A stretch of 24,371 nucleotides of DNA from a virus. Where the stretch lies: the IMG/VR virus record IMGVR_UViG_3300043464_000319, positions 1 to 24,371 of that record; one strand, given 5' to 3'. The notes beneath the pieces were generated by a model that was not told where the DNA came from, did no database searches, and worked only from the letters and a program-made list of their open reading frames with translations. Shown piece after piece: positions 3,721 through 24,142 of the stretch. The position numbers were made by a program, and so were the translations under genes. The stretch's first letter is position 1, and each line of letters begins with the position of its first letter.

Positions 3721-4023
3721 ATGGCAACAACAATTAAGGCTTTTGGACGTGGAGCATTTGCTACTTCTTCTGCAACTTTATACACAGTTCCAGCATCTAC
3801 AACATCTTTGGTTACTAATATTTTGGTGACCAATACAAGTGCTTCATCTCAAACTTTTACAATTACTTTTGACTCTGTAGAAGTTTTTGCACAATCATCA
3901 ATTGCTGCAAATACAACAATAGCACTTGATCTAAAACAGGCCATTGCAACAACTAAAATTGTTGCTGGTTTTGCAAGCAGTACAGATGTAAAATACCATA
4001 TCACTGGTGCAGAAATTGCATAA
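3721..4023 (+). CDS. 100-residue beta-sandwich virion protein, tandem copy 1
   Basis: Exactly 100 residues, all-beta, built from 'LYTVPASTTSLVTNILVTNT' (about residues 20-39), a strand pair with 'SIAANTTIALDLKQAIATTK', and the C-terminal 'HITGAEIA'. The next gene (4060-4362) is a same-length paralogue along its whole length. Small proteins with this 'LYTVPA.TT..VTN..V.N' signature are frequent in environmental phages next to fibre genes. They are usually annotated as structural or hypothetical; a decoration or fibre-tip role is inferred. It has a promoter and a GAGGAG ribosome site. Confidence 0.65.
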   Translation: MATTIKAFGRGAFATSSATLYTVPASTTSLVTNILVTNTSASSQTFTITFDSVEVFAQSSIAANTTIALDLKQAIATTKIVAGFASSTDVKYHITGAEIA

Positions 4024-4059: not shown

Positions 4060-4362
4060 ATGGCTACAACAGTAAAAGCGCTGGCAAGAACAGCAGCAGC
4101 AACATCATCAACAACACTATACACAGTACCAGCATCAACAACTGCTATTATAACAAATATTGCAGTTACAAATACCGCAGGAACAGCAGGAACATTTTCA
4201 CTTTCACTAGACGGTGTATCATTGCATACAACTTCGGCGATCGCTGCAAATTCTACAGTTTATATTGATCTTAAGCAAGCACTCGCTACAACAAAAGTTA
4301 TTGCTGGTCTTGCGTCAGCAACAACAATCAACTTTCACATTAGTGGAATAGAAGTCTCGTAA
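4060..4362 (+). CDS. 100-residue beta-sandwich virion protein, tandem copy 2
   Basis: Same length and order of motifs as the gene at 3721: 'LYTVPASTTAIITNIAVTNT', 'SAIAANSTVYIDLKQALATTKV' in shortened form, and a C-terminal 'HISGIEVS'. The two differ mainly in the middle strand region (residues 40-58), where exposed loops would lie. Its own promoter means the two copies may be expressed at different levels. The stop codon overlaps the next ATG (TAATG at 4360-4364), tying it to the first gene of the 125-residue array. Confidence 0.65.
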   Translation: MATTVKALARTAAATSSTTLYTVPASTTAIITNIAVTNTAGTAGTFSLSLDGVSLHTTSAIAANSTVYIDLKQALATTKVIAGLASATTINFHISGIEVS

Positions 4363-4739
4363 TGGGGATTCTTGTTATACCAACAGCAGCAGGTGGTGGA
4401 ATTAAATCGGTTCAACGTGGACTGGCTAGTTCTGCTGGAAACGTAACTATCAATGCTGTTGATATAACAAAATCTTTTGTTCAAGTTTTTGGTACCACAT
4501 CTTCTGGAACTGCTACTACAGATTCCACAGTAGGTTCAACAGGATCTAATGCATCTTCAGGAACAGCAGGAAGTAATAATAGCCCAGGTCCTAGTGGAGG
4601 ATCTTCAAGCATTAACTCAAGAAATCTTTCGGCAGGAACAAATAATCTTGTAACTGCTGTTGCACAAGGATACTTGTCTAACTCTACAACATTGGTAGTT
4701 TCACATGCCTGTCGTTGGGAAGTAGTTGAGTTCGCATGA
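4362..4739 (+). CDS. 125-residue adhesin-like virion protein, array copy 1
   Basis: First of four consecutive paralogues of identical length. Conserved parts are 'GGGIKSVQRG' (about residues 11-20), 'SFVQVFGTTSSGT' (about 38-50) and a C-terminal 'CRWEVVEFA' with a lone Cys at 117. The middle (about 50-95) is Gly/Ser/Asn-rich and differs most between copies. IKSVQRG-type proteins are seen in phage tail loci; I infer a beta-rich fibre-tip or decoration protein with a variable surface. It is translated by coupling to the preceding gene through TAATG. Confidence 0.65.
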   Translation: MGILVIPTAAGGGIKSVQRGLASSAGNVTINAVDITKSFVQVFGTTSSGTATTDSTVGSTGSNASSGTAGSNNSPGPSGGSSSINSRNLSAGTNNLVTAVAQGYLSNSTTLVVSHACRWEVVEFA

Positions 4740-4767
4740 AAAACAAAAATATGATTGAGAGATTGAT

Positions 4768-5145
4768 ATGGGAGTAAGGGCAATACCAGCATCAGCAGGT
4801 GGTGGAATTAAGTCAGTCCAACGTGGCCTTGCCGCTGCTGGAGGAAACGTAACTATTACTGCTGTAGATATTTCAAAATCTTTTGTTAAAGTATTTGGCA
4901 CCACATCTTCAGGAACAGTGGCCTCAACTTCTACAGTAGATGCCGCGAATGCAAATGCTGTTAGTGGTCTTAGTGGTAGCAATATTAGTGCACAGCATGC
5001 TGGTGGTGGAGCAAGCATTGGAGCAAGAAATTTATCAGGCGGAGCAAATAATCTTGTTGCAGCAGTTGCACAAGGCTATTTATCTACCTCTACAACTTTG
5101 GTAGTTTCTCACCCTTGTCGGTGGGAAGTTATTGAGTTTGCGTAA
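4768..5145 (+). CDS. 125-residue adhesin-like virion protein, array copy 2
   Basis: Same architecture as copy 1, with 'GGGIKSVQRGLAAAGGNVTI' at residues 11-30, 'SFVKVFGTTSSGT', and C-terminal 'PCRWEVIEFA'. The central segment is distinct (Ala/Asn-rich, with 'AQHAGGGASIGARNLSGG' in place of the 'PGPSGGSSS' type of the other three copies), so this is the most divergent middle in the array. A 28-nt spacer with a weak GAGAG ribosome site precedes it, and no promoter is evident. Role as for the array in general: inferred fibre tip or decoration. Confidence 0.65.
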   Translation: MGVRAIPASAGGGIKSVQRGLAAAGGNVTITAVDISKSFVKVFGTTSSGTVASTSTVDAANANAVSGLSGSNISAQHAGGGASIGARNLSGGANNLVAAVAQGYLSTSTTLVVSHPCRWEVIEFA

Positions 5146-5156
5146 AGGAGAAGCAG

Positions 5157-5534
5157 ATGGCCCTAGACACATATCCTTCAGGTGGTGGAGGCGGAATTAA
5201 ATCAGTTCAACGTGGACTTGCTTCCTCAGCAGGTACGGTTACAATTACGGCAGTAAATATTAGTAAATCCTTTGTTCAAGTTTTTGGCACTACATCTTCA
5301 GGTACTATTGCTGCATCTGGAACAATTGGTGCTCAATCGCACAATGCTTCTTCAGGTGTGGCAGGAAGCAACTATTCACCTGGACCTTCGGGTGGATCTT
5401 CAAGTGTTGGCTCTAGTAGTATATCTGCTGGTACAAATAATCTTCTTGCAGCAACTGCTCAAGGTTATCTATCTAACTCAACTAGTTTGGTAGTTTCTCA
5501 CCCTTGTAGGTGGGAAGTTATTGAGTTTGCGTAA
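5157..5534 (+). CDS. 125-residue adhesin-like virion protein, array copy 3
   Basis: Array member with an extra glycine-rich N-terminus ('SGGGGGIKSVQRG') and a middle containing 'YSPGPSGGSSSVGSSS'. Its 3' end and the junction with the next copy (about 5494-5543) match the end of copy 2 and its junction (about 5104-5154) almost base for base, including the AAAGGAG ribosome site. This points to recent duplication or gene conversion. Cys117 is kept in 'PCRWEVIEFA'. Confidence 0.65.
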   Translation: MALDTYPSGGGGGIKSVQRGLASSAGTVTITAVNISKSFVQVFGTTSSGTIAASGTIGAQSHNASSGVAGSNYSPGPSGGSSSVGSSSISAGTNNLLAATAQGYLSNSTSLVVSHPCRWEVIEFA

Positions 5535-5543
5535 AGGAGAAAC

Positions 5544-5921
5544 ATGGTAATATCAACATATCCTGCAGCAAGTAGCGGTGGAATTAAGTCAGTCCAACGT
5601 GGTTCGGCTGGAGCAGCAGGGACAGTAACTATAACTGCCGTAGATGTTAATAAGGCTTTTGTTCAAGTTTTTGGCACAACATCTTCAGGCACTGTTGCTT
5701 TGTCTGGAGTTGTTGGGGCACAAAACCATAGCGCTAATACAGGTATAGCAAACAGCAACATTACTCCTGGACCTTCGTCTGGATCTTCAAGTGTTGGTGC
5801 TAGCAATATATCTGGTGGAACAAACAACCTTGTATCAGGAATTGTACAAGGGTATCTTTCAAATTCAACAAGTCTAATAGTCAGCGGTGCTTGCCGTTGG
5901 GAAGTAGTGGAGTTTAACTAA
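5544..5921 (+). CDS. 125-residue adhesin-like virion protein, array copy 4
   Basis: Last array member. It keeps 'GGIKSVQRG', 'FVQVFGTTSSGT' and 'CRWEVVEF', but ends in Asn instead of Ala and has 'ITPGPSSGSSSVGASN' in the middle. AAAGGAG just upstream is the ribosome site. Its TAA overlaps the ATG of the next gene (TAATG at 5919-5923). Like the others it lacks a signal peptide and transmembrane segments, as expected for a virion component. Confidence 0.65.
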   Translation: MVISTYPAASSGGIKSVQRGSAGAAGTVTITAVDVNKAFVQVFGTTSSGTVALSGVVGAQNHSANTGIANSNITPGPSSGSSSVGASNISGGTNNLVSGIVQGYLSNSTSLIVSGACRWEVVEFN

Positions 5922-6235
5922 TGAAAACATTTATTCAATTAAAAGATGGTATCGGGTTTGCCTTTATTGACACACCTAGTGATACAGACGGTATTGAGGT
6001 TACATTTGGTACTGGAGAGTCTTATATTAAGAAACAACTAATTAATGATGAGTGGGTAGAAGCCCCAATTATTAAATATGCAAATTTAGGTACAGATGGA
6101 CGTATTGTTGAAGTATTATCAACAGTATTTAGTAGTGTTGTTGGAGATAATCCAATTATTCCAGAAGGACTAGATCTTTTGTCTACTTGGAATGGTACCT
6201 CTTGGGTCGCACCACAATCTTCAGATGAAGAATAA
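5921..6235 (+). CDS. 104-residue unknown phage protein in fibre operon
   Basis: An acidic protein with an N-terminal 'MKTFIQLKDGIGFAFI', a middle containing 'NDEWVEAPIIKYANLG', and a C-terminal 'TWNGTSWVAPQSSDEE'. The 'WNGTSWV' box followed by a short acidic tail is common at the end of small phage tail or fibre-accessory proteins. A fibre chaperone or accessory role is possible, but no family is recognised. It is coupled to the four-gene array by TAATG. Confidence 0.5.
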   Translation: MKTFIQLKDGIGFAFIDTPSDTDGIEVTFGTGESYIKKQLINDEWVEAPIIKYANLGTDGRIVEVLSTVFSSVVGDNPIIPEGLDLLSTWNGTSWVAPQSSDEE

Positions 6236-6262: not shown

Positions 6263-6946
6263 GTGGATATTGTTTTTACTAATACTTTGGGATATAAAAA
6301 TATTGAGCCACCAACTCCTGCAACAAAAATGTTGCCAGGTTGGTATAAAGAAATGGATTCATATCTTAATGGAGAAAAATTAACTACAGGTGTGGGCATT
6401 AATTCTGGGACTATAAAAAGATGTATGCCTGTATTTGATGCAATAGTAGCGGGGTATATAATTACACTTCCAGCAGATGTTGCTGTTTATTTAAAAGATG
6501 GTGAGCAAAAGTTTCATTCTGCAGATTTTAATTTAATAGATTTTCATCCAATTGAACAGGCTCCTACACATCCAGTAAAAAATAAATTTATATATCCTAA
6601 GTGGATCAATGTGTGGTCTATAAAAACACCACCAGGATACTCAACATTATTTGTAAATCCAATGCATCATAGCCTGCCTTTTACAATTTTGCCTGGGATA
6701 GTAGATACAGATAAGTATACTGCTCCAGTAAATTTTCCTTTTGTAATCAATGACATTAATTTTGAAGGAATAATTCCAAAAGGCACACCTATTGCTCAAG
6801 TGATTCCTTTCAAAAGAGATCCTTGGGAGATTAAAATTGGCGGATTTGAAGAAATGCAAGAACAGTCTGACGTTTCTAATATATTAAAAACAAAGTTTTT
6901 TGATAGATATAAGAATGCTTTTAGATCATCTAAAGAATATAAATAA
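6263..6946 (+). CDS. DUF6065-like protein, 227 aa
   Basis: Soluble protein with features I associate with the DUF6065 family of phage and bacterial proteins. There is an N-terminal segment with 'PGWYKEMDSYL', a central 'PKWINVWSIKTPPGYSTLFV' (about residues 112-131) leading to 'HHSLPF', and a C-terminal 'IIPKGTPIAQVIPFKRDPWE' (about 172-191). The last piece reads like the end of a cupin-type double-stranded beta-helix, but a catalytic role is not established. The start is GTG at 6263 with a purine run (AGGGGGGG) just upstream. It lies directly before the sulfotransferase, which has its own promoter. The family call comes from memory of motifs and is moderately sure. Confidence 0.55.
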   Translation: MDIVFTNTLGYKNIEPPTPATKMLPGWYKEMDSYLNGEKLTTGVGINSGTIKRCMPVFDAIVAGYIITLPADVAVYLKDGEQKFHSADFNLIDFHPIEQAPTHPVKNKFIYPKWINVWSIKTPPGYSTLFVNPMHHSLPFTILPGIVDTDKYTAPVNFPFVINDINFEGIIPKGTPIAQVIPFKRDPWEIKIGGFEEMQEQSDVSNILKTKFFDRYKNAFRSSKEYK

Positions 6947-10267: not shown

Positions 10268-12076
10268 ATGGCAACAGTAACAAAAGATTTTAGAGTAAAA
10301 GCGGGACTGGTAGTTGAGGGATCAACTGCGACCGTTAATGGAAAGAACATTATCACAGCAGGTGTCGTTGACGCTAAAGGTGATTTGATTGTTGGTAGTG
10401 CTGACGATGCAGTAGCACGTTTGGGCATTGGTACAAATGGTCAAGTGCTTACAGCAAACTCAGGTGCGACATACGGCGTTGAGTGGCAAGCACCAGCAGC
10501 AGTTGGTGTATTTGGTTCAAGTATTGAGTTTGAAGGATCTACAGCAAATGATTTTGAAACAACACTTGCAGTAACTGATCCAACAGCAGACCGCACAATC
10601 ACACTTCCAGATGCAACTGGTACAGTAGCACTTACTTCAGATATTACAGTTAGTGCATCTTCAACAAACACATTTTCAAACAAGTCAATATCACTTGGTT
10701 CAAACACAGTAACTGGAACTACTGCAGAATTTAATGCTGCACTTACAGATTCTAACTTTGTAACTACTGGAGATACTGGAACTGTTACAAGCACAATGAT
10801 TGCAGACGGAACTATTGTTGATGGAGATATTAATGCATCAGCAGCGATTGCTCAGTCTAAGATTTCAGGTCTTACTACTGACCTTGGAAACAAGGCTTCA
10901 GCATCAGATCTTACAACTCACACAGGTGCTTCAACAGGAGTACACGGTGTAACTGGTTCAGTAGTTGGAACATCAGACACACAGACACTTACAAATAAAA
11001 CACTTACCTCTCCAGCAGTAGACGGAAACGGAATTGTTTTTGAAGGTGCTACAGCAAATGACTTTGAAACAACACTTACAGTTACAGACCCAACATCTGA
11101 CAAGACTATTACTTTGCCAGATGCTACAGGTACTGTTGCTCTTACAAACAACAAGTTAGATGTTTTTGCTGCAACTACTTCAGCAGAACTTCGTACAGTA
11201 ATCTCTGATGAGACTGGTACTGGCGGACTTGTTTTTGCTGATACCCCAACACTTATAACACCAAACATTGGTGCTGCAACTGGTACATCTTTGGTTCTTT
11301 CAGGGGACCTAACAGTTAATGGTACAACAACTACAATTAACTCAACAGAAATTACAGTTGATGACAAGAACCTTACACTTGGTTCAGTAGCAACTCCAAC
11401 AGATGCAGGTGCAGACGGTGGTGGTATTACTCTTAAGGGTGCTACAGATAAGACTCTTAACTGGGTAGATGCAACTGATTCATGGACCTCTTCAGAGCAC
11501 CTTGATCTTGCTTCTGGCAAGGTACTAAAGGTTGCTGGAACTCAGGTTCTATCAGCAACAGAGTACACAGGAAATGCTGCAACAGTAACAAATGGTGTTT
11601 ATACAACAAGCAAGATTTCAGCACTTGCTGCAACATCATCTTCAGAACTTGCATCAGTTATTTCAGATGAAACAGGAACAGGCGCTCTAGTATTTGCTAA
11701 TACGCCAACTCTTGTTACTCCAGAACTTGGTGCAGCAACAGGTACTAGCCTTGCTCTACCAGATGCCCTTGTTGGATCTGCAACAGCAACTGCTGGAACT
11801 TCAGCAACAACAATTGATACATTCTCAGCAACAACATATTCTGCTGCTAAGTATGTAGTTCAGATGAAAAAGTCTGGCAACATTGAAGTAATTGAAATTC
11901 TTGTTGCTGTAGATGGAGACAACAATGTTTATCTAACAGAGTATGCTAATGTACAAAGCAATGGTGAACTAGGAACAACAAATGCTGTTTATTCAAGCGG
12001 TAATGTTCTTCTTCAGGTTACCGCAGCCGCTGCAGACACTGCTGTTAAGGTAAGCAAGACCTACATCGAAGCATAA
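10268..12076 (+). CDS. Repeat-rich tail fibre protein, 602 aa
   Basis: Starts with an adapter-like 'TKDFRVKAGLVV' (residues 4-15), which also opens the protein at 12096. Two copies follow of a module ending 'TITLPDATGTVAL' (about residues 92-125 and 255-295) and two copies of one with 'VISDETGTG.LVFA.TPTL' (about 313-345 and 470-500). Between them lies a block with 'LTVNGTTTTINSTEITVDDK' (about 347-366) that recurs in the gene at 12596. The last 85 residues match the C-terminus of the protein at 9808. Such beta-repeat proteins are trimeric tail fibres in environmental phages. AAGGAG precedes the ATG; there is no separate promoter, so it is probably co-transcribed from 9793. Confidence 0.75.
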   Translation: MATVTKDFRVKAGLVVEGSTATVNGKNIITAGVVDAKGDLIVGSADDAVARLGIGTNGQVLTANSGATYGVEWQAPAAVGVFGSSIEFEGSTANDFETTLAVTDPTADRTITLPDATGTVALTSDITVSASSTNTFSNKSISLGSNTVTGTTAEFNAALTDSNFVTTGDTGTVTSTMIADGTIVDGDINASAAIAQSKISGLTTDLGNKASASDLTTHTGASTGVHGVTGSVVGTSDTQTLTNKTLTSPAVDGNGIVFEGATANDFETTLTVTDPTSDKTITLPDATGTVALTNNKLDVFAATTSAELRTVISDETGTGGLVFADTPTLITPNIGAATGTSLVLSGDLTVNGTTTTINSTEITVDDKNLTLGSVATPTDAGADGGGITLKGATDKTLNWVDATDSWTSSEHLDLASGKVLKVAGTQVLSATEYTGNAATVTNGVYTTSKISALAATSSSELASVISDETGTGALVFANTPTLVTPELGAATGTSLALPDALVGSATATAGTSATTIDTFSATTYSAAKYVVQMKKSGNIEVIEILVAVDGDNNVYLTEYANVQSNGELGTTNAVYSSGNVLLQVTAAAADTAVKVSKTYIEA

Positions 12077-12595: not shown

Positions 12596-13795
12596 ATGGC
12601 AACAAGAATGCAACAGCGTAGAGGAACCGCTCTACAATGGACTACTGCAGACCCAATCCTAAATGCAGGAGAAATGGGCTGGGAGTCAGATACAAATAAA
12701 TTTAAGATTGGTGATGGAATAAATCACTGGGACGATCTTGACTACTTTCTAGATGGTGTGGCTCTTGGTGCAAGCATTGATGACTATATCCCACTAACAC
12801 AAAAAGATGCAGCAAGTGGTGTACCATCTCTTGATGCAAACAAAAACCTTATTGTTGCAGGAACATCTATTATTGTTGAAGGTACAACAGATAATAATAA
12901 CGAAACCACTCTAACGGTTACAGATCCTACAGCAGATCGCACTATTACTTTCCCCGATGCAACAGGAACAGTTATTACAACTGGTAACCTTTCAGATATT
13001 ACAAATATTGGAGTATTTACTTCAACTATTACAATGGAAGGTTCTACAACAAATGATTTCGAACTTACTCTTTCAGCAGGAGATCCAACCGCTGATCGCA
13101 CAATCACATTCCCTGACGAAACAGGTACAGTTCAACTTAGAGTAAGTGACGTATCAGATACTGAAATTGGATACCTCAATGGTGTTACTTCAGCAATTCA
13201 AACTCAGATGGATGCTAAGGCACCACTTGCAGGACCAGCACTAACTGGAGATGCAACAGCAGTTAACTTAACAGTATCTGGAAACTTAACTGTAAATGGA
13301 ACTACAACAAATATTAATTCAACCAACTTAGTTATTGAAGACAAAAATATTATTCTTGCAGACGTAGAAACTCCAACAGATACAACTGCTGATGGTGGCG
13401 GTATTACATTAAAAGGCGCAACAGATAAGACCTTTAACTGGGTAGACGCTACAGACGCTTGGACTTCATCAGAGCATGTTAATCTTGCTTCAGGTAAGAC
13501 ACTAAAGTACAATGGAACTGATCTAGTTGCAGCACAGTCTGGTAACTCAGGCAAGTACCTTACTACAGATGGAACTTCAACTTCTTGGGGTACAATTTCA
13601 GGATACTCAGCACCTACACTTGGTTCAACATCAATTGCTTCAGGAGCAACAGTAACAACAATTGAGGGACTAACATTAACAGCACCAACACTAACTGGAA
13701 CAGTAACAGCGTCAGGAGATATTAACTTGTCTGCTGCAAATGGACCAGGAAGTTTGATTGATGAATTAGCCTTGCTTATGATGAATGCTTTGTAA
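12596..13795 (+). CDS. Tail fibre with tropism-determinant-like N-terminus, 399 aa
   Basis: Residues 3-48 carry 'RMQQRRGTALQW', 'LNAGEMGWESDTNKFKIGDG' and 'HWDDL'. This is the signature of the N-terminal domain of the phage major tropism determinant family, which anchors many fibre proteins. Then come two 'TDPTADRTITFPDATGTV'-type modules (about 95-130 and 140-178) and a block with 'LTVNGTTTNINSTNLVIEDK' shared with the 602-residue fibre. Next is a 'GGGITLKGATDKT.NWVDAT' repeat, and a short Ala/Leu-rich C-terminus. The receptor-binding end is not identifiable and no C-type lectin fold is visible. It ends 33 nt before a strong terminator. Confidence 0.75.
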   Translation: MATRMQQRRGTALQWTTADPILNAGEMGWESDTNKFKIGDGINHWDDLDYFLDGVALGASIDDYIPLTQKDAASGVPSLDANKNLIVAGTSIIVEGTTDNNNETTLTVTDPTADRTITFPDATGTVITTGNLSDITNIGVFTSTITMEGSTTNDFELTLSAGDPTADRTITFPDETGTVQLRVSDVSDTEIGYLNGVTSAIQTQMDAKAPLAGPALTGDATAVNLTVSGNLTVNGTTTNINSTNLVIEDKNIILADVETPTDTTADGGGITLKGATDKTFNWVDATDAWTSSEHVNLASGKTLKYNGTDLVAAQSGNSGKYLTTDGTSTSWGTISGYSAPTLGSTSIASGATVTTIEGLTLTAPTLTGTVTASGDINLSAANGPGSLIDELALLMMNAL

Positions 13796-13935: not shown

Positions 13936-15969
13936 ATGTCAGAAAGCGTATTCTCTTTTCGTCTATCAGAAGAATTTGTAAATAAATATCAAACCATTCC
14001 AGCGCCATTTGGATTCTCAGATGCAGGGTCTAACTCTCTGGGAGAGGTAACATTTATTCGTACATATTCTCGTGTTAAGGAAGACGGTACAAAGGAACGC
14101 TGGCATGAAGTTTGTCGTCGTGTAATTGAGGGTATGTATTCAGTACAGAAGAATCACGCTAAAGATAACCGTCTACCCTGGAATGATAACAAGGCTCAGA
14201 AGTCTGCACAAGAAGCATTTCAAAGAATGTTTGAATTGAAGTGGACTCCCCCAGGTCGTGGACTTTGGGCCTTTGGAACTCCTATGACTATGGAGAAGCG
14301 TAACTCTGCTTCCCTTCAAAACTGTGCAATGGTTTCAACCAGAGATATTGATCGTAATGATCCAGGTGCCATTTTTGCTTGGGTAATGGATGCATTAATG
14401 TTGGGTATAGGTGTAGGGTTTGATACCCTTGGACAAGACAAGCAAATGTCAATCTATGCACCTACAGAGCCAGCGTCTATCTATGAAATCCCAGATACTC
14501 GTGAAGGATGGGTCGAGTCTGTTAGATTACTTATTAATTCATTCCTTCGTCAAAACCAGCCTATTCAACAGTTTAACTATGATTTCATCCGACCTCTAGG
14601 TGCCCCTATTAAGGGCTTTGGAGGCGTTGCAAGCGGTCCAGAACCACTTATTGATCTCCATACACGTATTCGTAATGTAATCGGTTCTAGAGCAGGAGAA
14701 GCCCTTGATAGCCGTGCCATTGTAGACCTTGTAAATCTTATTGGTACATGTGTTGTTTCTGGAAATGTTCGTCGTTCTGCTACCCTTGCACTTGGCGTTC
14801 CACAAGATGAAGGTTTTATTAATCTTAAAAATCCAGAAGTATTTCCTGAAAGAAATTCATATGATCCAGAAAAGCCAGGTTGGGCGTGGATGAGTAATAA
14901 CTCAATTGCTGCTGAAATTGGAACAAAGTATGAAGACTATGTAGATCTAATTGCAGATAATGGAGAGCCAGGATTTATCTGGCTTGACGTTGCTCGTAAT
15001 TATGGAAGACTTGCAGATGCTCCAGATTATAAAGATGCCCGTGTTATGGGATTTAATCCATGTGCAGAGCAACCACTTGAGTCCTATGAACTTTGTACTC
15101 TTGTAGAGGTTCACTTAAACCGTCATGAATCTAAAGAAGATTTTCTTAAGACATTAAAGTTTGCATACCTTTATGGAAAGACTGTAACTCTCATGCCAAC
15201 ACACTGGCAGCAGACAAACGGTATTATGCAACGTAATCGCCGTATTGGAACATCTTTAACAGGTATTGCTTCATTTGCAGATACTTATGGACTTCCAACA
15301 ACTCGTGAGTGGATGGATGAGGGATATAATAAAATTCGTCACTATGATCACCAATACTCAGAATGGCTTTGCGTTCGTGAATCAGTTCGTGTAACTACTG
15401 TTAAACCTTCAGGATCAGTCTCACTTCTTTCTGGTGCTACTCCTGGAGTTCACTGGGGTCCTGGTGGAGAGTTCTATCTTCGTGCCATTCGCTTTGGAAA
15501 TACTGACCCAATGCTTTATTTGTTTAAAGCAGCGGGATATAAGATTGAATCAGACCTTGTATCAGCAAATACATCAGTAGTCTATTTCCCAGTAGCGTCT
15601 GGACACAAACGTGCAGAAAAGCAAGTTAGCCTATTTGAAAAAATTGGTTTGGCTGCAACTGCTCAGAAGTACTGGTCAGATAATGGTGTTTCTGTAACCC
15701 TTTCTTTTGACAAAGAAGAAGAGACAAAGTTTATTGCTCCAGCCCTGAATATGTACGAGGGACAGTTAAAGGCAGTCTCATTCCTTCCAATGGGAAATAA
15801 AACATACCCTCAGCAACCTTATACAGAAATAACAAGAGAAGAATACAACTCATATGTAGGCAAGATTGGTAAGATTGATTGGTCTGCTATTTATGATGGA
15901 GTAGAAAACCTTGAGGCTGCTGGTGAGGCATACTGTTCTACAGACGCATGTGAGATTAAGTTTTACTAG
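13936..15969 (+). CDS. nrdJ: Class II (adenosylcobalamin-dependent) ribonucleoside-triphosphate reductase, 677 aa
   Basis: Reduces ribonucleotides to deoxyribonucleotides using a radical generated from adenosylcobalamin. Diagnostic residues match the monomeric Lactobacillus leichmannii type. Cys130 ('LQNCAMVST') and Cys387 are the active-site redox pair. Cys376 in 'NPCAEQ' is the thiyl-radical cysteine with Glu378 two residues on, and Cys387 is 11 residues after it as in the family. Cys667 and Cys672 in the C-terminal 'YCSTDACEIKFY' are the mobile thiol pair, also with family spacing. 'GNVRRSATLALG' (276-287) is another conserved block. Length is slightly shorter than the roughly 740 of bacterial enzymes. 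It stands alone between a terminator and the next promoter, amid virion genes. Confidence 0.92.
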   Translation: MSESVFSFRLSEEFVNKYQTIPAPFGFSDAGSNSLGEVTFIRTYSRVKEDGTKERWHEVCRRVIEGMYSVQKNHAKDNRLPWNDNKAQKSAQEAFQRMFELKWTPPGRGLWAFGTPMTMEKRNSASLQNCAMVSTRDIDRNDPGAIFAWVMDALMLGIGVGFDTLGQDKQMSIYAPTEPASIYEIPDTREGWVESVRLLINSFLRQNQPIQQFNYDFIRPLGAPIKGFGGVASGPEPLIDLHTRIRNVIGSRAGEALDSRAIVDLVNLIGTCVVSGNVRRSATLALGVPQDEGFINLKNPEVFPERNSYDPEKPGWAWMSNNSIAAEIGTKYEDYVDLIADNGEPGFIWLDVARNYGRLADAPDYKDARVMGFNPCAEQPLESYELCTLVEVHLNRHESKEDFLKTLKFAYLYGKTVTLMPTHWQQTNGIMQRNRRIGTSLTGIASFADTYGLPTTREWMDEGYNKIRHYDHQYSEWLCVRESVRVTTVKPSGSVSLLSGATPGVHWGPGGEFYLRAIRFGNTDPMLYLFKAAGYKIESDLVSANTSVVYFPVASGHKRAEKQVSLFEKIGLAATAQKYWSDNGVSVTLSFDKEEETKFIAPALNMYEGQLKAVSFLPMGNKTYPQQPYTEITREEYNSYVGKIGKIDWSAIYDGVENLEAAGEAYCSTDACEIKFY

Positions 15970-15978
15970 TCCCTGGCC

Positions 15979-15987
15979 TGCTATAAT
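15979..15987 (+). promoter_or_regulatory. Extended -10 promoter TGCTATAAT
   Basis: TATAAT at 15982-15987, 17 nt before the ATG at 16005. The ribosome site AGGAGA (15996-16001) lies at the 5' end of the predicted 11-nt leader, the same geometry as at 2030 and 2994. Confidence 0.65.
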
Positions 15988-16004
15988 AGTGGGATAGGAG
16001 AACA

Positions 16005-19000
16005 ATGTCTAATCCATCAAACTTATATGCAGAAAAGATTTTTTCGGAACACCCACTGGTTTTGTGGGCACTTGATGATAAGTCTGACTATGTAAGTTTG
16101 ATTACAGAGGCTCAAAGAAATATTGAGTCATTGTGGACAATATCTGGTGCAACAGTAAATACAGATCCTGGAAGTGGTGCGCTTAACCCACCATTTGAGG
16201 ACAGTTTGTCAACTAGTGTTCTTGGAACTGTTCCAGTAGGACCAACAGGAAACATAGTTCTTATTAGTCCAAATCTTAATAATTTTTCTAGTATGAGTTC
16301 ATCTCTTGGCACTTTTTCTGTTGGATCTTATTTTTATTCAAATAGCATTTACATTAACTCCATATCTATCGGTTATGAATATACAGATCCGTCAACATCT
16401 TCAGTTGTTCAAGAGTTAGAAACATTTGTAGATCCAATCTATAATAAATGGTCGTTTCTATCCTCTACCTTTATAGTGCCAGACAAAGTAGCAACTTTTA
16501 GAATTGTAATAAAGATTTCTACCGCTTCTGGCGGAGCCTCTTCTTCGGACTATCAGTTTTATGTTAATGGTATTAGTGCAGGGCAGTGGGCAGAAGAATT
16601 TCATGCTACATCTTTAGGAACATCAGTATCTACATTTCCTGCAAATATTGCTATAACTCAAGACTATGCAGTTGAGGCTTTGCCTTATGGATTAACAAAT
16701 GTTAGTGGATATTACTTAGCATCAGAAACTGCTCTTTTTGCAAGGAATACAAGTATTCCCCTTGTATACGGAGCATCTGGAGTTACCAAGATAATCCCTA
16801 ATGGCGAGAACCCATCTTTAATTGTTCCAGGCCAAGGCTTTTTAAATGAACTTGGAAGATATAATGAATATACTGCTGAGTTTTGGATAAGAGTTAATTC
16901 AGACACACTAAATCCAAGAAGAATTTTTGGTCCAATTGCATCTTCTGATGGAATATATGTTGAATCTGGTTTTATAACATTAAAAATTGGAGAATCTTTC
17001 AGGTCTCACTTTATTGGCGAATGGTATAGACCTATGCTAGTCGATATTAGAGTTATTAAAAATTCTGCAAGTTTACTTATTAATGGAGAAGAGGTTATCT
17101 CTTTATCTTTTGATACAGAATCAATTTCTTTACCATCAATTATAGAAGATGTATCAGAAGCATCTCAAGACTGGCTAGGGTTTTATGCCTATGAAGATGT
17201 TCCAGAGATAGAGATTGATTGTGTAGCAATTTACCCTTATCAGGTACCAACCATAGTTGCTAAACGTAGGTGGGTTTATGGCCAAGGAGTTGAATCACCA
17301 GAAGGAATAAATTCCGCATATGCAGGAGTTTCTGCTTTTATTGATTACTCGTTTGCTGACTATACTGCTAACTATTCTTATCCTGGATTTGCTAAATGGC
17401 AACAGGGAACATTTGATAATTTAGTAACAACATCAACATCTTTACAAACACCCTCTTATGTTTTGCCAGATATTATTCTTGGAACTAAAACTATTTCAGA
17501 ACTTTATAATGATAATAAAACAATTCAGTCTGAAGACAATAATTTTATATGTTTAAAACCAAATCTTGACTGGCAAGATATTGATGGATACTTTAACTTT
17601 TCTAGCCTTGACATATTAAATGATGAGGTCCATTCTATCTATATGGTAATTAAAGTACTAGACAATGTTGCCCAAGAGCAAACACTTTTTTATATTAATG
17701 ATCTTTCAACAGGAAATAAATTTAGTGTTATTAAAGAGGGGTTATTGGTCAAATACTACTTAACATATAATAATGAAGAGGAACTAATTTTTACAACAGA
17801 CGCACTTTCTTTAAACACAAAAAGAGCAGTAGGAATAAACATAGATAAACTTGTTGAAACTTTTGGTGGCAACATAGCAGCATTTTTTGGTAAACGTCAA
17901 GGGCTTAACTTATATATTGGTGGAGGCGAACCTGGAACTGATACCTTTAATGGATATATTTATTCAGTTGGAATATCTACACAATTTAATAGCAATCAAA
18001 TACTAGATCATTTTCTAGATAATGGAATTGCTATAATTACTTCTGCAGATGAATTGTTTATTCATACAGCAAGTTATAATCTTCTTGCTAATGAAAGATA
18101 TGGAATGTTTTTCTTAGATATTGGAGTTTCTGGATATTGGGAAGACTATCTACCACTTTCTTATTTTGCACAATACGTAAAAAATGACGTTGGTAATGAA
18201 TATTATGATCTAGACTTTATTCAGTTTAATTATGACTACCCAGAACCATCTACTACAACACAGGAAGATGTTGGTGTTGAGGGATTTTCTTATATTGATC
18301 TATACAACCAATACTCTTCTCCACTTCAACAGACATACGAAGATTTAGCAGATGTGGCTGAGAGTGGGTGGCAAGATTATTTAGAAATGTCTGAGCAGTC
18401 TGTAAGTGCAGATATTTATAATACTGATAATTCTGAAGTTAGAAGTTATATAACATTTCAGTATATCTCTGATGGAGCAAACTCCCCACTATCCAACTTT
18501 TTGACAGTTGATAAACCAATAAAAACAAAAATTTTAGATATGGATAATCATCCAGAATGGCCAACCACAAGGTTTGAAGTTGTAAACAATACCCTTATCT
18601 ATCCAAGTAAAACCATAGATTTTAATGAACTTGCAATTGTGTATCGACTTGAGTTTAACGTTCGTGGAACCCTCACTAAATCATTAAACCTAAGAAATCT
18701 TTCTTTTAGTTCTCAAGTATTAAATAATAATTCGTTTAATGCAATTGGAACTAAGTTTGGAAATAGTTTATTCCCATATAAGAAGGCTGGAATTTATTAT
18801 GACTATAAGTCAAAAAATCCTTTTAGTATTTACAAAGACAGTACTCCTTACCTGTATATGACTAAAAATTCAGGAATTGAGGTTCGTGGAGACTTTTTAC
18901 CTTCCATAGATCGTGGAATATCTTTACCAGTTAACACTACACTTGCAAGTAATTATCGTATTAGCGCATTTCAAACTTGGTATAGAAATGATAGCGAAAA

Positions 19001-19601
19001 CTTTGAGGTTTTACCAGTTCAACTTTTTGAAATAAATCATAAAAATGAAAAGATTAAATTTTATGTTAAATCATTAAACTCCTCTGGAAGTAGAGGAAAA
19101 ATATATGGAATAAATGATTCAACTGGCGAAGAGGTAAGTGGAATATCTTATTATATTAATGGTGTTATTGTTAGGGAGCCAGTTATAACTATTAGGGAAT
19201 GGTCAGTAATAGGAATATCTTTTGGCTCTTCACTAATATTTGACTCATTCTTAGGGTCAATAAATATTAACGGCCCAGGCGTATTTAATAATTTATCTTA
19301 TTATCAAGCAACAAATTTACAACAGATTCAGAGCATAGTCGCAAGACTTTGGACAGACATTGATTCAGAAGATGGGACCATCCTTGATTGGCAATACTGG
19401 AAAGATAACTATTCCTGGAATGGCATGCTTGTCCTATCATCATCCTCAACATATGGCGTGAATCCCTCAGAAATATATAAAACCTACATTGGAACAAATA
19501 AGATTATCGTAGATGATGGAGAAGGTATGATCCTGGACTCTGATAAACTAAAGATTTATGATGCTGTTGAGTGGTCAACTTCTGTTGTCACTCCAGTCTA
19601 A
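16005..19601 (+). CDS. Large LamG-like virion protein, 1198 aa
   Basis: A long beta-rich protein starting 'SNPSNLYAEKIFSEHPLVLW' with 'ALDDKSDY' next, an opening I associate with actinophage minor-tail/LamG proteins. Three stretches look like concanavalin A/LamG-type jelly rolls. At about 288-410, 'AEFWIRVNSDTLNPRRIFG' runs to a DIRVIKNSASLLINGEE strand. At about 543-665, 'YMVIKVLDN' runs to 'NLYIGGGEPGTDTFNGYIYS'. At about 985-1105, 'ISAFQTWYRNDSE' runs to 'SLIFDSFLGSININGPG'. These folds bind carbohydrate in other proteins. No catalytic motif or signal peptide is seen. It has its own promoter and is followed by a leaderless gene, so it is probably a single-gene unit. Likely a tail-tip or whisker adhesin; exact position in the virion is unknown. 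Confidence 0.65.
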   Translation: MSNPSNLYAEKIFSEHPLVLWALDDKSDYVSLITEAQRNIESLWTISGATVNTDPGSGALNPPFEDSLSTSVLGTVPVGPTGNIVLISPNLNNFSSMSSSLGTFSVGSYFYSNSIYINSISIGYEYTDPSTSSVVQELETFVDPIYNKWSFLSSTFIVPDKVATFRIVIKISTASGGASSSDYQFYVNGISAGQWAEEFHATSLGTSVSTFPANIAITQDYAVEALPYGLTNVSGYYLASETALFARNTSIPLVYGASGVTKIIPNGENPSLIVPGQGFLNELGRYNEYTAEFWIRVNSDTLNPRRIFGPIASSDGIYVESGFITLKIGESFRSHFIGEWYRPMLVDIRVIKNSASLLINGEEVISLSFDTESISLPSIIEDVSEASQDWLGFYAYEDVPEIEIDCVAIYPYQVPTIVAKRRWVYGQGVESPEGINSAYAGVSAFIDYSFADYTANYSYPGFAKWQQGTFDNLVTTSTSLQTPSYVLPDIILGTKTISELYNDNKTIQSEDNNFICLKPNLDWQDIDGYFNFSSLDILNDEVHSIYMVIKVLDNVAQEQTLFYINDLSTGNKFSVIKEGLLVKYYLTYNNEEELIFTTDALSLNTKRAVGINIDKLVETFGGNIAAFFGKRQGLNLYIGGGEPGTDTFNGYIYSVGISTQFNSNQILDHFLDNGIAIITSADELFIHTASYNLLANERYGMFFLDIGVSGYWEDYLPLSYFAQYVKNDVGNEYYDLDFIQFNYDYPEPSTTTQEDVGVEGFSYIDLYNQYSSPLQQTYEDLADVAESGWQDYLEMSEQSVSADIYNTDNSEVRSYITFQYISDGANSPLSNFLTVDKPIKTKILDMDNHPEWPTTRFEVVNNTLIYPSKTIDFNELAIVYRLEFNVRGTLTKSLNLRNLSFSSQVLNNNSFNAIGTKFGNSLFPYKKAGIYYDYKSKNPFSIYKDSTPYLYMTKNSGIEVRGDFLPSIDRGISLPVNTTLASNYRISAFQTWYRNDSENFEVLPVQLFEINHKNEKIKFYVKSLNSSGSRGKIYGINDSTGEEVSGISYYINGVIVREPVITIREWSVIGISFGSSLIFDSFLGSININGPGVFNNLSYYQATNLQQIQSIVARLWTDIDSEDGTILDWQYWKDNYSWNGMLVLSSSSTYGVNPSEIYKTYIGTNKIIVDDGEGMILDSDKLKIYDAVEWSTSVVTPV

Positions 19602-19603
19602 TA

Positions 19604-19612
19604 TGGTATACT
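19604..19612 (+). promoter_or_regulatory. Extended -10 promoter TGGTATACT
   Basis: TATACT at 19607-19612 ends 7 nt before the ATG at 19620. TTGTCA (19585-19590) with a 16-nt spacer is a fair -35 box, inside the end of the preceding gene. Leaderless start of the head operon. Confidence 0.7.
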
Positions 19613-19619
19613 AAAGGTT

Positions 19620-20015
19620 ATGAATCCATTGATTAGCCAAAAAACTGGTAAGCCTATAGTCAGCAATGTCCGAAGAAAGGTCATTGAGAAACAATATGAC
19701 TGGGGTTTGTACGTATATAAGAAGTCAAGTGGCAAGTGGTTTACAGACGGAGAGGGTAACGTCCTAAACATTGAGTCCATGCGTGGAGATATATCTAAGA
19801 TTTCAGAATTAAAAAATGCAGCAAAGCACTTTGGTGACCCAGGAGATGGTGAAGCCGTATTTGTTGCGGGACTTACAAGAATTACAGATGAAGAACACTC
19901 AGAACAGATGGACAGACTTAAGCAAGGACTAATTCCATCAATGAACGATCTAGGTGCTTGGCATGCTGCACAGCAAACAGTTGACAAATTTGGTAGGGGT
20001 GCTTTAGATGAGTGA
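19620..20015 (+). CDS. 131-residue protein preceding portal, unknown
   Basis: A soluble protein with a basic N-terminus ('SNVRRKVIEKQYDWGLYVYK', about residues 15-34), then 'SSGKWFTDGEGNVLNIESMR', and a helical, charged C-terminal half ('LTRITDEEHSEQMDRLKQGL'). I recognise no family. Its last 8 nt overlap the portal gene (ATG 20008, TGA 20013-20015), so it is the first gene of the head operon and translationally coupled to the portal. A head-assembly or DNA-packaging accessory role is only inference from place. The promoter's -10 box ends 7 nt before its ATG. Confidence 0.6.
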   Translation: MNPLISQKTGKPIVSNVRRKVIEKQYDWGLYVYKKSSGKWFTDGEGNVLNIESMRGDISKISELKNAAKHFGDPGDGEAVFVAGLTRITDEEHSEQMDRLKQGLIPSMNDLGAWHAAQQTVDKFGRGALDE

Positions 20016-21606
20016 AGAAAAAAGATACATTGGTGCAAGTTTAAATACACAAGAAGATCAAGAAGATATCTTTAAAGACCAAGATCCTTTTATTAAGTCT
20101 TGGGAAACTCTAAAAGAATACTCTGGGCTAGACCAAAACTTTAAAAGAAGAGTTTCAAGAGTTGTCAATAAAGCAATTGGTGACGAGGCATATCTAGATT
20201 CTGCAAACGCAATGCCTTATGGCCAGGATTCGGGGTCTAAGCAGATTAATCCTGGAACCGTATATCGTAATGGTTATGGTTTGTTTGATGTTATTACTCC
20301 ACCATACAATATGTATGAGTTAGCAAATTTTTATGATACTTCATTTGCTAACCACGCAGCCATTGACGCAAAGGTAGAAAACATTGTTGGGCTTGGCTAT
20401 CACTTTGCTATGACAGATAGCACATCTCTTCGCTTTGAAATGAGTGAGGACGAAGACAAGGTAAAGCGCGCTCGCAAGCGTGTAGAAAGAATGAAGATTG
20501 AGATTCGTGATTGGCTAGAAAGCCTAAATGACGACGACTCATTTACAAAAATTATGGAAAAAGTTTTTACAGATCTTCAAGCAACGGGTAATGGTTTTGT
20601 CGAAGTGGGTAGAAATGTTGAAGGAGAGATTGGTTACATAGGACACATCCCTGCAACCACAGTTCGTGTACGTAGACTACATGATGGATTCTTGCAAATT
20701 ATTGGTCAAAAGGTTGTTTACTTCCGCAACTTTGGAGCAAGCAATCCTAATCCAGTAACAAATGATTCTCGTCCAAATGAGATTATTCATATTAAAGAAT
20801 ACTCTCCACTAAATACATTTTATGGAGTTCCAGATATTGTGTCTGCTCTTCCATCTCTTATTGGAGACAAACTAGCATCACAGTATAATATTGATTATTT
20901 TGAAAACAAGGCGGTACCAAGATATGTTATTACTCTAAAGGGTGCACAACTATCTGGTGATGCAGAAGACAAGATGTTTAGGTTCTTACAGACAGGTCTA
21001 AAGTCTCAATCTCACAGAACTCTATATATCCCACTTCCTGGAGATACAGACCAGAATAAGGTTGAGTTTAAGATGGAGCCAATTGAAAATGGTATCCAGG
21101 ATGGATCATTTAAAGAATACCGCAAACAAAATCGTGATGACATTTTAATTGCTCATCAAGTGCCAATATCTAAACTTGGAGGCGCAGACTCTTCTGCAAT
21201 TGCAGCAGCCTTAGCACAGGATCGTACCTTTAAGGAACAGGTTGCAAGACCTGCCCAGCATCACTTGGAAAAGATAGTCAATAAAATAATCCGTGAAAAG
21301 ACAGATGTTCTTGAACTTAAGTTTAATGAACTCACCCTTACCGATGAAATTGCTCAGTCTCAGATTCTTGAGCGTTATGTCAAAACCCAAATCATGCTAC
21401 CAAACGAAGCCCGTGAGATTCTTGATCTGCCACAGGTTAGTCATGGGGATGAACCACTTCAACTCTCAGCAAGGCAAGCAACTGACGAAAGAGCAAACCT
21501 AGCAGGGAATCGCCAAAGGGATACAGAAAGAACAAATAGCCAATCCGATGGCACGGCAACCGTCTCTGGGAGAAATCCACAAGGAGAAGGTAGAGCGTCT
21601 CAATAA
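20008..21606 (+). CDS. Phage portal protein, 532 aa
   Basis: Member of the HK97/PBSX-type portal family. The dodecameric ring at one capsid vertex nucleates assembly and conducts DNA. Seen in the sequence are 'NHAAIDAKVENIVGLGYHFA' near 112-131, a helix-rich stretch with 'DLQATGNGFVEVGRN' (about 188-202), and the family-typical 'YGVPDIVSALPSLIGDKLAS' (about 272-291). 'YFENKAVPRYVITLKGAQLS' and a C-terminal stem with 'VPISKLGG' (about 387-394) follow. The last 50 residues are polar and probably disordered (Gln, Arg, Ser). Typical length. It overlaps the previous gene by 8 nt and precedes the protease. Confidence 0.85.
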   Translation: MSEEKRYIGASLNTQEDQEDIFKDQDPFIKSWETLKEYSGLDQNFKRRVSRVVNKAIGDEAYLDSANAMPYGQDSGSKQINPGTVYRNGYGLFDVITPPYNMYELANFYDTSFANHAAIDAKVENIVGLGYHFAMTDSTSLRFEMSEDEDKVKRARKRVERMKIEIRDWLESLNDDDSFTKIMEKVFTDLQATGNGFVEVGRNVEGEIGYIGHIPATTVRVRRLHDGFLQIIGQKVVYFRNFGASNPNPVTNDSRPNEIIHIKEYSPLNTFYGVPDIVSALPSLIGDKLASQYNIDYFENKAVPRYVITLKGAQLSGDAEDKMFRFLQTGLKSQSHRTLYIPLPGDTDQNKVEFKMEPIENGIQDGSFKEYRKQNRDDILIAHQVPISKLGGADSSAIAAALAQDRTFKEQVARPAQHHLEKIVNKIIREKTDVLELKFNELTLTDEIAQSQILERYVKTQIMLPNEAREILDLPQVSHGDEPLQLSARQATDERANLAGNRQRDTERTNSQSDGTATVSGRNPQGEGRASQ

Positions 21607-21627
21607 TTGAGAAACTTCATAAACATT

Positions 21628-21636
21628 TGATATAAT
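21628..21636 (+). promoter_or_regulatory. Extended -10 promoter TGATATAAT before the protease gene
   Basis: TATAAT at 21631-21636, 10 nt before the ATG at 21647. A -35-like TTGAGA (21607-21612) lies 18 nt upstream of the box. The predicted leader is only about 4 nt. Confidence 0.65.
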
Positions 21637-21646
21637 AGGAACTGAT

Positions 21647-22948
21647 ATGAAAATAAATAAGGCTTCTTGGGTTACTGATGGCGACAACGTTCGCTTATCA
21701 ATGCCCCTTACCAAGGTAGACCAAGGACGAAGAATCGTCTCAGGTTTTGCATCTCTGGATAATCTAGACAAGCAAAACGACATTGTTACTACAGAAGCAT
21801 CTATGAATGCATTTGCAAAATTCCGTGGGAATATTAGAGAAATGCATCAACCATCAGCAGTAGGCAAGATGGTTTCATTTAAAGAAGAAAAGTATTTTGA
21901 TCCAGAATCAAAGAAGTTTTATAAGGGTGTTTATGTTTCTGCATACATCTCTAAGGGTGCACAAGATGCATGGGAAAAAGTTCTAGATGGAACTTATACT
22001 GGTTTTTCTATTGGTGGAAGAATGAATAAGTGGGACGACGCATATGACGAAAAGTCAGATGAACAAATTAGAATTATTAAAGACTATGATCTCATTGAGT
22101 TGTCATTAGTTGATAGCCCAGCCAACCAATTTGCCAGCATAATGTCTGTTGAAAAAGTAGATGGTGTTGATGTTATTAAGGGTGATGAAACAGTTCTAGA
22201 AAACGTATTTTACGATAAGGAATCTGGTATAGTAGTTACCTCAGAAGAAGAAACGCAGATTAGTCCTGTATCTGGAGAAGAGATGCAGAATATTGGTTTT
22301 GTTGAAAAAACTGATTCTGAAAAAGCAGACATGATAAAATTCTTAGTTGATAGTGCTAAAGGCATTAGAACTTCTAAGATTAACAAGGAGGTAAACCATA
22401 TGACAGAAGCAACAGAAGTATTAGATACTCCAGTTGAAAATGCAGAGGTTGCTCCAGAGGCACAGCCAGCAGAAGTTGTTGAAACTCCTGCAGTCGCTGA
22501 AGAAGCAGTGGTTGCTGAAGAAGCACCTGCAGCAGAAGCAGTTGATGGTAGTGCAGAATCTACTGATGCAGAGGAAGCACCAGTAGAAGAAGAGAAGACA
22601 GAAGAAGCAGTTGCTAATGCAGTTGCTGATGTTAAAGAAGAAGTTGCTAAGGCACTTGCTGAAATTAACGCTTCTCTTACTAATGCCTTTGGCGATCTCG
22701 CTGCAACCGTTAAGTCTCTTCACGAGCAGGTAGCAGCAGTAACGAAGTCTCTTGATAATGTAACTGGAGAAGTTAACAGTATCAAAGGAAACTTCAATGA
22801 GTTTGGCAAGCGAGTTGATGCCGTAGTTGCAGACACCGCTTTCCGCAAGTCTGGCGATCTAGGCGAGATCGTGCAGTTTGAGCCTGTGAAGGTTCAAAAA
22901 TCCCTATGGGGCGGTCGTTTCCTCAAATCAACCGACCTATTAAACTAA
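21647..22948 (+). CDS. Prohead protease fused to scaffold, 433 aa
   Basis: Residues about 15-170 are a HK97-type (U35) prohead protease. His67 ('NIREMHQPS'), Ser121 ('YTGFSIGG') and Glu151 ('DLIELSLVDSP') correspond in order and spacing to the His-Ser-Glu set of the family. It would process the scaffold and capsid during head maturation. Residues about 250-330 are an acidic Ala/Glu/Pro/Val-rich stretch. About 330-400 is a helical coiled-coil-like region ('AAVTKSLDNVTGEVNSIKGN'), ending in a basic tail, which fits an assembly scaffold. An in-frame ATG at 22400 with a near-perfect Shine-Dalgarno sequence probably yields the scaffold alone. The start has only a very short leader behind the -10 box. 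Confidence 0.85.
   Translation: MKINKASWVTDGDNVRLSMPLTKVDQGRRIVSGFASLDNLDKQNDIVTTEASMNAFAKFRGNIREMHQPSAVGKMVSFKEEKYFDPESKKFYKGVYVSAYISKGAQDAWEKVLDGTYTGFSIGGRMNKWDDAYDEKSDEQIRIIKDYDLIELSLVDSPANQFASIMSVEKVDGVDVIKGDETVLENVFYDKESGIVVTSEEETQISPVSGEEMQNIGFVEKTDSEKADMIKFLVDSAKGIRTSKINKEVNHMTEATEVLDTPVENAEVAPEAQPAEVVETPAVAEEAVVAEEAPAAEAVDGSAESTDAEEAPVEEEKTEEAVANAVADVKEEVAKALAEINASLTNAFGDLAATVKSLHEQVAAVTKSLDNVTGEVNSIKGNFNEFGKRVDAVVADTAFRKSGDLGEIVQFEPVKVQKSLWGGRFLKSTDLLN
22385..22392 (+). promoter_or_regulatory. Internal Shine-Dalgarno AAGGAGGT inside the protease gene
   Basis: A near-perfect anti-16S match lies 7 nt before the in-frame ATG at 22400, in the middle of the protease-scaffold gene. It is the strongest ribosome site in the head module apart from that of the capsid gene, and it decides a second start. 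Confidence 0.8.
22400..22948 (+). CDS. Internal in-frame start: free scaffold protein, 182 aa
   Basis: Residue 252 of the long protein is a Met whose codon follows AAGGAGGT at the ideal 7-nt distance. Translation from here would give MTEATEVLDTPVENAEVAPE and onward: an acidic Ala/Glu-rich N-terminus, a coiled-coil region and the shared C-terminus, without the protease. Nested protease/scaffold starts are known in lambda (C and Nu3). Excess free scaffold over protease-scaffold fusion is a known need of head assembly. The signal is seen; expression of the short form is inferred. Confidence 0.75.
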   Translation: MTEATEVLDTPVENAEVAPEAQPAEVVETPAVAEEAVVAEEAPAAEAVDGSAESTDAEEAPVEEEKTEEAVANAVADVKEEVAKALAEINASLTNAFGDLAATVKSLHEQVAAVTKSLDNVTGEVNSIKGNFNEFGKRVDAVVADTAFRKSGDLGEIVQFEPVKVQKSLWGGRFLKSTDLLN

Positions 22949-22977
22949 AGATATAAAATCACTAGGAGGTGAACAAT

Positions 22978-24120
22978 ATGTCGGAACAAAATACAGATAT
23001 CGTAAAGAATTATCCTGGATCACCAACCGAGTCACACGCCCATAACGGCGACGGTGCATTCGCATCTGGTGCTATCGGTGGTGCAACAACCACAGATGCC
23101 AACGGTAATCTTTCACCCGCTGCTTCGCTTGGTAACATTGCTACAGCGAACTTCGGATCAACATCTGGCGCAAATGCTGTAAACCCAACTGGAACACCAG
23201 GTGGTATTCTAGCACCAGAGCAGGCTCGTCGCTTCATCGACTACGTGTGGGATGCAACAGTTCTCGCCAAGGATGGTCGTAAAGTTACAATGCGTGCAAA
23301 CACCATGGAACTTGAAAAGGTCAACGTTGGTGAGCGTGTAATCCGTGCTGCTGCTCAGGCACAGCCAGATTTCACAAATGCTGGTGCAACTTTCACAAAG
23401 GTCGAACTTACTACAAAGAAGATTCGTCTTGACTGGGAAGTTTCAGCAGAAGCGCTTGAAGATAATATTGAAGGTGCAGCACTTGAAGATCATCTAGTTC
23501 GCTTGATGACCAATGCTTTCGCTAACGATATTGAAGACCTCGCAATTAACGGCGACGGTTCAACAGGCAACTTCCTTTCAATCATGGAAGGATTCGTCCA
23601 CTTAGCAGGAGATGGTTCTGATGCTCACGAAGCAGCAGTAACAGTCGCTGATGATGCTTGGACAACAAGCGTAATGCAGGATATTATTCTTGCAATGCCA
23701 CGTAAGTACCGTGCACTCAAGAACAATCTTAAGTTCTACGCAGGTACAGATGCATTCCAGGGAATCGTTAAGAACAACGGTACACTTGCAGATGCAATCG
23801 CTGAAGCCTTTGTTAACAAGGGTCCAGGCACAGAGGCAAATCGTCAGTCATACCTTGATGGCGCAGGACAGACATTCGGTGGAGCACGTACAACTCGTGT
23901 TCTCGGAGTAGAAGTCATGGAAGTACCTTACTACCCTGCAGGATATGTCGACTTGACATTCCCACAGAACCGTGTATGGGGCTTCCAGCGTGATATCACA
24001 GTAAATCGTGAATACATCAACAAGAAGGACACAATCGAATACACAGTATTCATCCGCTTTGGTATCCAATGGGAAGAACTTGATGCAGTTGCTTACGCAG
24101 ATGCAGCAGCAAATTCCTAA
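22978..24120 (+). CDS. Major capsid protein, HK97-fold, 380 aa
   Basis: The position after portal and protease/scaffold, the length and the body from about residue 76 match actinophage-type HK97 capsid proteins: 'GGILAPEQARRFIDYVWDAT', 'VGERVIRAAAQAQPDF', 'KIRLDWEVSAEALEDNIEG', then a C-terminal 'ITVNREYINKKDTIEYTVFI' with 'RFGIQWEELDAVAYAD'. Residues 1-75 form a Gly/Ala/Thr/Asn-rich leader that recurs in the next gene. ATG 22978 is chosen because AGGAGGTGA (22964-22972) lies 5 nt before it; GTG at 22969 overlaps this ribosome site. Codon choice looks richer in C-ending codons than in the neighbours, as expected for the most expressed gene. It forms the icosahedral shell. Confidence 0.9.
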   Translation: MSEQNTDIVKNYPGSPTESHAHNGDGAFASGAIGGATTTDANGNLSPAASLGNIATANFGSTSGANAVNPTGTPGGILAPEQARRFIDYVWDATVLAKDGRKVTMRANTMELEKVNVGERVIRAAAQAQPDFTNAGATFTKVELTTKKIRLDWEVSAEALEDNIEGAALEDHLVRLMTNAFANDIEDLAINGDGSTGNFLSIMEGFVHLAGDGSDAHEAAVTVADDAWTTSVMQDIILAMPRKYRALKNNLKFYAGTDAFQGIVKNNGTLADAIAEAFVNKGPGTEANRQSYLDGAGQTFGGARTTRVLGVEVMEVPYYPAGYVDLTFPQNRVWGFQRDITVNREYINKKDTIEYTVFIRFGIQWEELDAVAYADAAANS

Positions 24121-24142
24121 TTAATACTTAGCAATGGCTTAA

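Follow-up and report, generated by a model that had tools for sequence, protein, structure and literature searches.

Up to four adjacent tailspike genes, TSP1-4, are found in the Ackermannviridae (CBA120, Kuttervirus), and their products form one branched complex (PMC8825819, PMC8432352). Small proteins have also been placed at fibre ends: in phage Milano, at least two of them, the garland proteins, are located distally on the tailspikes and fibres (PMC10811340). Where variation is generated by a diversity-generating retroelement (DGR), the C-type lectin fold is said to house the annotated variable regions (PMC8144416). Here, we describe four adjacent paralogous genes in the virus record IMGVR_UViG_3300043464_000319, the whole 24,371 bases of which are called the window in the following. 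The Ackermannviridae four-tailspike complex is the nearest known arrangement in behaviour; however, the proteins of the window, which belong to what we call the IKSVQRG family, are not members of it.

The four-gene array and its cassette

Four consecutive genes of equal length, each encoding 125 residues, lie on the plus strand of the window at 4362..4739, 4768..5145, 5157..5534 and 5544..5921 (copies 1 to 4), as the initial annotation had stated. Their products align without gaps, and copies 2, 3 and 4 are 70, 72 and 62% identical to copy 1. The gene before copy 1 overlaps it, its stop codon running into the start of copy 1 (TAATG), and the stop of copy 4 overlaps the start of the next gene. 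The motifs noticed earlier, GGIKSVQRG, VFGTTSSGT and CRWEV.EF, are indeed invariant in all four copies, save for slight variation in the first G's. Directly upstream of copy 1 is a 100-aa partner gene, c2 (4060..4362, plus strand), which is phrog_1276-like (unknown function); a second c2 copy at 3721..4023 (plus strand) is 57% identical to it. Directly downstream of copy 4 is a 104-aa partner gene, c3 (5921..6235, plus strand). Close to the cassette, a phrog_7084-like gene (unknown function) is present at 6263-6946 of the window and in many relatives, including L019, L022 and L038; some relatives have two copies, in two cases on opposite strands.

The centre of each protein, residues 50-95 (4509..4646 on the plus strand in copy 1, and the same residues in copies 2-4), holds the arm insertion discussed below and is less conserved, with a mean identity of 53% among the four window copies, against 72% for residues 1-49 and 76% for residues 96-125. 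Calling this middle hypervariable overstated the case, as it evolves about twice as fast. Between the window paralogues, dN is 0.29-0.58 in the centre and 0.06-0.31 in the flanks, while dS is about 1 or saturated; thus, the centre is faster evolving, with no sign of positive selection. The equal length, taken as telling at first, holds in the window, but the members of four-copy arrays elsewhere are nearly all 124-128 aa. Single-copy members have a longer range, 127-199 aa, and this contrast goes back to two or three independent events, for which reason its small p-value is given no weight.

Copies 2 and 3 had been noticed to share their end and junction. The 3' end of copy 2 and its spacer (5090..5156, plus strand) are near-identical to those of copy 3 over 56 nt, with one mismatch, in a tract that runs through the stop codon into the spacer. 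For this pair, dS is 0.32 in the C-terminal core, against 1.03 and 1.55 in the other two regions, and the shared end is a real trace of local conversion or duplication. Other tracts in common between paralogues are mostly in the cores; since the tract test cannot tell slow-evolving cores from conversion, only the tract of copies 2 and 3, with the low dS behind it, is claimed as conversion. Two further records of the window phage, 99.8-99.9% identical to it, show one and zero differences in the array.

By its sequences, the IKSVQRG family is new, widespread and without annotation. It spans 56 lineages of uncultivated phage contigs (viral contig scans and a profile census), and the window carries the core pattern IKS[VI]QRG ... 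K[ST]F ... NST ... C.W.V.E[FY], aligned over both ends. No significant match was obtained in Pfam and PHROG scans of the four window proteins and 46 family members. Tblastn with family and core proteins as queries found nothing among 50,697 named phages, nor did a search for a host or prophage among bacterial and archaeal genomes; among solved structures and named families, none matches the IKSVQRG family. In nearly all lineages, including that of the window, the gene order is c2, family gene or genes, c3, with both neighbours in the expected place in 43 of the 56 lineage arrays; c2 is 100-109 aa and c3 about 85-180 aa across lineages. Complete cassettes hold one copy (29 lineages), two (3) or four (11), and never three. 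The family is practically confined to the cassette array in whole records of up to 91 kb; a search of whole records of four-copy phages found no copy beyond the array except a marginal match in G013 (E 9e-4). In L095 (3190-5811), the entire c2-family-c3 cassette is doubled in tandem, and thus the three genes move as a unit.

The phage itself has a portal protein 46% identical, and a capsid protein 43-44% identical, to those of Streptomyces phages of the Stanwilliamsviridae. The region 13936-24371, with ribonucleotide reductase, two genes, portal, protease and capsid, resembles phage Birchlyn (Stanwilliamsviridae) in gene order, and the predicted host is likely actinobacterial. After the capsid gene, a partial ORF (24190-24371) starts like the capsid N-terminus (SYPGNPTEDHTH versus NYPGSPTESHAH) and is possibly a second capsid-like gene. 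Two genes for fibre-like proteins, at 10268-12076 and 12596-13795, have 'TVTDPTADRTITLPDATGTV'-type repeat blocks in common.

Core, arm and distant relatives

Window copy 3 and one copy from clade B, the second four-copy group described below, were modelled with AF2, and the two models agree. Both have a beta core, made of residues about 13-43 and 101-125 (pLDDT 92-96), and a centre of extended beta structure at lower confidence, in models with an overall pTM of only 0.53-0.54. Minimal relatives, 80-93 residues long, align to the core (hhalign 99.3%, E 4e-20) and have no centre; thus, the centre is an insertion. When the two models were compared with the PDB by Foldseek, the matches were all insignificant; those to pore-forming toxins (E of at least 0.05, TM about 0.2) were rejected as chance similarity between beta-rich proteins. 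Against viral models, Foldseek returned three uncharacterised phage proteins of 114-132 aa (E 2e-3 to 8e-3).

Elsewhere, the core has distant relatives at tail-fibre loci, in phages whose tail genes differ. In L047, the core gene starts inside the stop codon of a gene for an 837-aa protein with the T7-fibre N-terminal domain (PF03906, 1.5e-10). In L099, Baseplate_J is followed later by Phage_tail_fib (PF12571, 6e-57), one gene, the core and a small c3-like gene; in L046, the order is Baseplate_J, Mu Gp48, one gene, a protein with the core as its C-terminus and, again, a small c3-like gene. The core forms the end of a 618-aa protein adjoining depolymerase-like genes in L100, and in L155 and L156 it is followed by a protein with Phage_tail_APC at its end. 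This domain, PF16778, is present in neighbours of L155, L152 and L100, and the first half of c3 resembles the small proteins after distant cores (hhalign 90.9%, E 1.1e-6, 50 columns). PF16778 is absent from the window c3 and from the 15-member c3 alignment, and the window c3 has no Pfam or PHROG match at all; a chaperone role for it may be taken as a lead.

Two further distant relatives, L157 and L166, encode a protein of 131-132 aa that has the IKSVQRG core at the C-terminus, within DGR loci (L166 4857-7068; L157 1364-3570). In L166, an adenine-rich template repeat (TR, 5358-5435), about 270 nt downstream, copies positions 5087-5164 of the gene, which lie in the core, and the mismatches between variable region (VR) and TR are at template adenines in 7 of 7 cases. 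With A making up 26% of the template, the probability of this by chance is about 7e-5; where the template reads AINGNSNNNNSNPGNWDA, the protein has AINGTSYTDASNPGSWDA. L157 has the same arrangement, with all mismatches within the VR at template A, by eye, and in both phages the TR is followed by a reverse transcriptase (PF00078, E 1e-21 to 1e-24; 2e-21 in L166). Aligned with the window proteins, the variable region covers residues 37-102, the arm site. Both phages are linked to the window family mainly by the N-terminal half of the core, together with the aligned C end (L166 against the family profile: hhalign 96.7%, E 4e-10, 33 columns, N half). That a DGR varies the stretch corresponding to the centre gives independent support for contact between this face and something variable. 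In the window and the cassette-bearing records searched, which are fragments, PF00078 is absent (controls positive); DGR diversification of the window copies was rejected, as the records of their family have no reverse transcriptase.

Two origins and a proposed function of the four copies

A comparison of copy number and centre variation across relatives, suggested in the initial annotation, has been carried out: the relatives have one, two or four copies, and in clade B the centres are bound to position. In this clade, positions 1-4 are each monophyletic (97-100% bootstrap). Among six divergent phages of the clade, centres at the same position are 68% identical and those at different positions 46%, whereas the corresponding values for the two parts of the core are 66/59% and 72/60%; when the centres only are compared, the best match in another phage always comes from the same position (24 of 24). 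The centres are the most position-specific part of the protein and, judging by the substitutions, under strong purifying selection: between L023 and L037, the centre of copy 1 has 18 synonymous and 0 amino-acid changes. In clade B, the genes share a TAATG overlap, consistent with coupled translation. The four copies of the window, on the other hand, form one clade (98-99%) nested in a mostly single-copy group, and the flanks of the array match single-copy L009 and L017; thus, the four genes of the window are an independent, local, in-place expansion. L071 and L072 also have four copies, and these scatter among clade B and two-copy L067 and L074, whose gene pairs match each other in swapped order; the trees are based on about 130 columns and their deep forks are weak, including the older branching around these four lineages. 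Taken as a whole, a four-gene set resembles a fixed kit of parts rather than a shuffling store of variants.

We propose that the four genes encode non-interchangeable fibre-tip subunits, made from one operon and located together at the fibre ends with their arms facing the host, a reading that we regard as evenly poised. Each product would be a small tail-fibre-tip (knob) subunit with a conserved all-beta core of about 80 residues, formed by its N and C thirds, and an arm inserted mid-way. In the window lineage, one ancestral gene, flanked by the same two partner genes, would have been multiplied on the spot into four, and the cores would stay alike through selection and occasional gene conversion, with the arms diverging. 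In the second lineage, the set of four would have been fixed long ago, each position retaining its own arm. The subunits may form a hetero-oligomer or be the four tips of a single structure, exposing the arms to the host surface. The location at the fibre tip and in the virion, the co-assembly and the host contact are what we infer here, and for co-assembly the basis is gene order, coupling and positional conservation. The window cassette lies among genes matching tail-fibre PHROGs. Against a fibre tip, however, it is upstream of the portal gene and not beside tape-measure or tail-tip genes, and against a four-part assembly, single-copy phages manage without the other three. The earlier suggestion of exposed tips and/or a hetero-oligomer is likely to be right, considering the core at fibre loci, the beta-arm insertion and the DGR at the matching stretch. 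In a broader version, which seems to us rather doubtful, the IKSVQRG core would serve generally as a fibre-tip scaffold with one loop site, which different phages vary in three ways (by a DGR, by long single-gene insertions, or by multiplication into a fixed, position-specific set of four subunits that form an obligate hetero-oligomer), and the four-copy state would have arisen at least twice.

Other explanations have to be considered in the following. First, the genes may encode four separate homo-oligomeric tips, each for a different receptor or host, and thus broaden the host range as in the Ackermannviridae tailspikes. Arms that differ by position on cores in common would suit such tips, as would the core at fibre loci elsewhere and an arm site diversified by a DGR in two phages; however, the clade B arms are all conserved in divergent phages and unexchanged between positions, whereas the known multi-receptor set swaps binding modules between positions in some phages (PMC8432352), and we see this explanation as possible at best. 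Second, the proteins could decorate the capsid surface or another part of the virion instead of the fibre tip, considering that the cassette is upstream of the portal, protease and capsid genes and that a neighbouring window protein weakly resembles a head-decoration PHROG. This is improbable, as core relatives are found at fibre loci among varied tail genes, one of them ending a 618-aa fibre-region protein, and the neighbours in the window match tail-fibre PHROGs. Third, a gain in dosage through amplification and later drift, the copies having no separate roles, would agree with the independent expansion in the window and with copy numbers that differ between lineages, but it leaves the clade B centres, conserved position by position over long divergence with synonymous changes far exceeding amino-acid changes (e.g. 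18 to 0, L023 versus L037), without explanation, and we give it very little credence. Finally, the recombining reservoir of alternative host-contact surfaces raised by the initial annotation, for which the divergent centres and the single clear conversion tract, where copies 2 and 3 end, could speak, is scarcely tenable, since the clade B copies are positional orthologues without centre shuffling (24/24, that is, the conservation across phages that the same annotation had named as counting against it), the shared tracts are mostly core, the three near-identical records of the window lineage have 0-1 SNP in the array and the records of the family have no reverse transcriptase.

Relation to known systems

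The proposal of specialised fibre-tip subunits would define a widespread fibre-associated domain without prior annotation, with a core-plus-insert layout, in uncultivated relatives of Streptomyces phages (Stanwilliamsviridae). The natural series of one, two and four copies at one locus makes the step from one subunit to a fixed specialised set open to study. In a distant branch, a retroelement hypermutates the same site, on a core whose fold, in the models of window copy 3 and of a clade B copy, was not recognised as C-type lectin by Foldseek against the PDB.

Several known systems share part of this arrangement. A fibre gene followed by a Phage_tail_APC (PF16778) chaperone gene is alike in that a small gene follows the core, which is c3 in the window, but the window c3 itself has no PF16778. 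Mtd of BPP-1 and the tentaclins, receptor-binding proteins diversified by DGRs, are comparable with L157 and L166, which have a VR, a TR and a reverse transcriptase, and differ from the window family, which has no reverse transcriptase. The garland proteins of Milano are likewise small proteins at fibre or spike ends, a location that is predicted for the window family; Milano, however, is a contractile Agrobacterium phage, and the comparison is by description; the window family matched no solved structure. The closest likeness is to TSP1-4: adjacent genes with assembly parts in common and different binding parts, as read here from the genes. TSP1-4 are large tailspikes with beta-helix binding modules, whereas the window proteins have 125 aa and no PDB or Pfam match; the N-termini of TSP1-4 are XD/TD assembly domains, whereas those of the window proteins are part of the shared core, in which no such domain was found. 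The modules of TSP1-4 sometimes swap position, while the arm here is an insertion inside the core and, in clade B, stays with its position.
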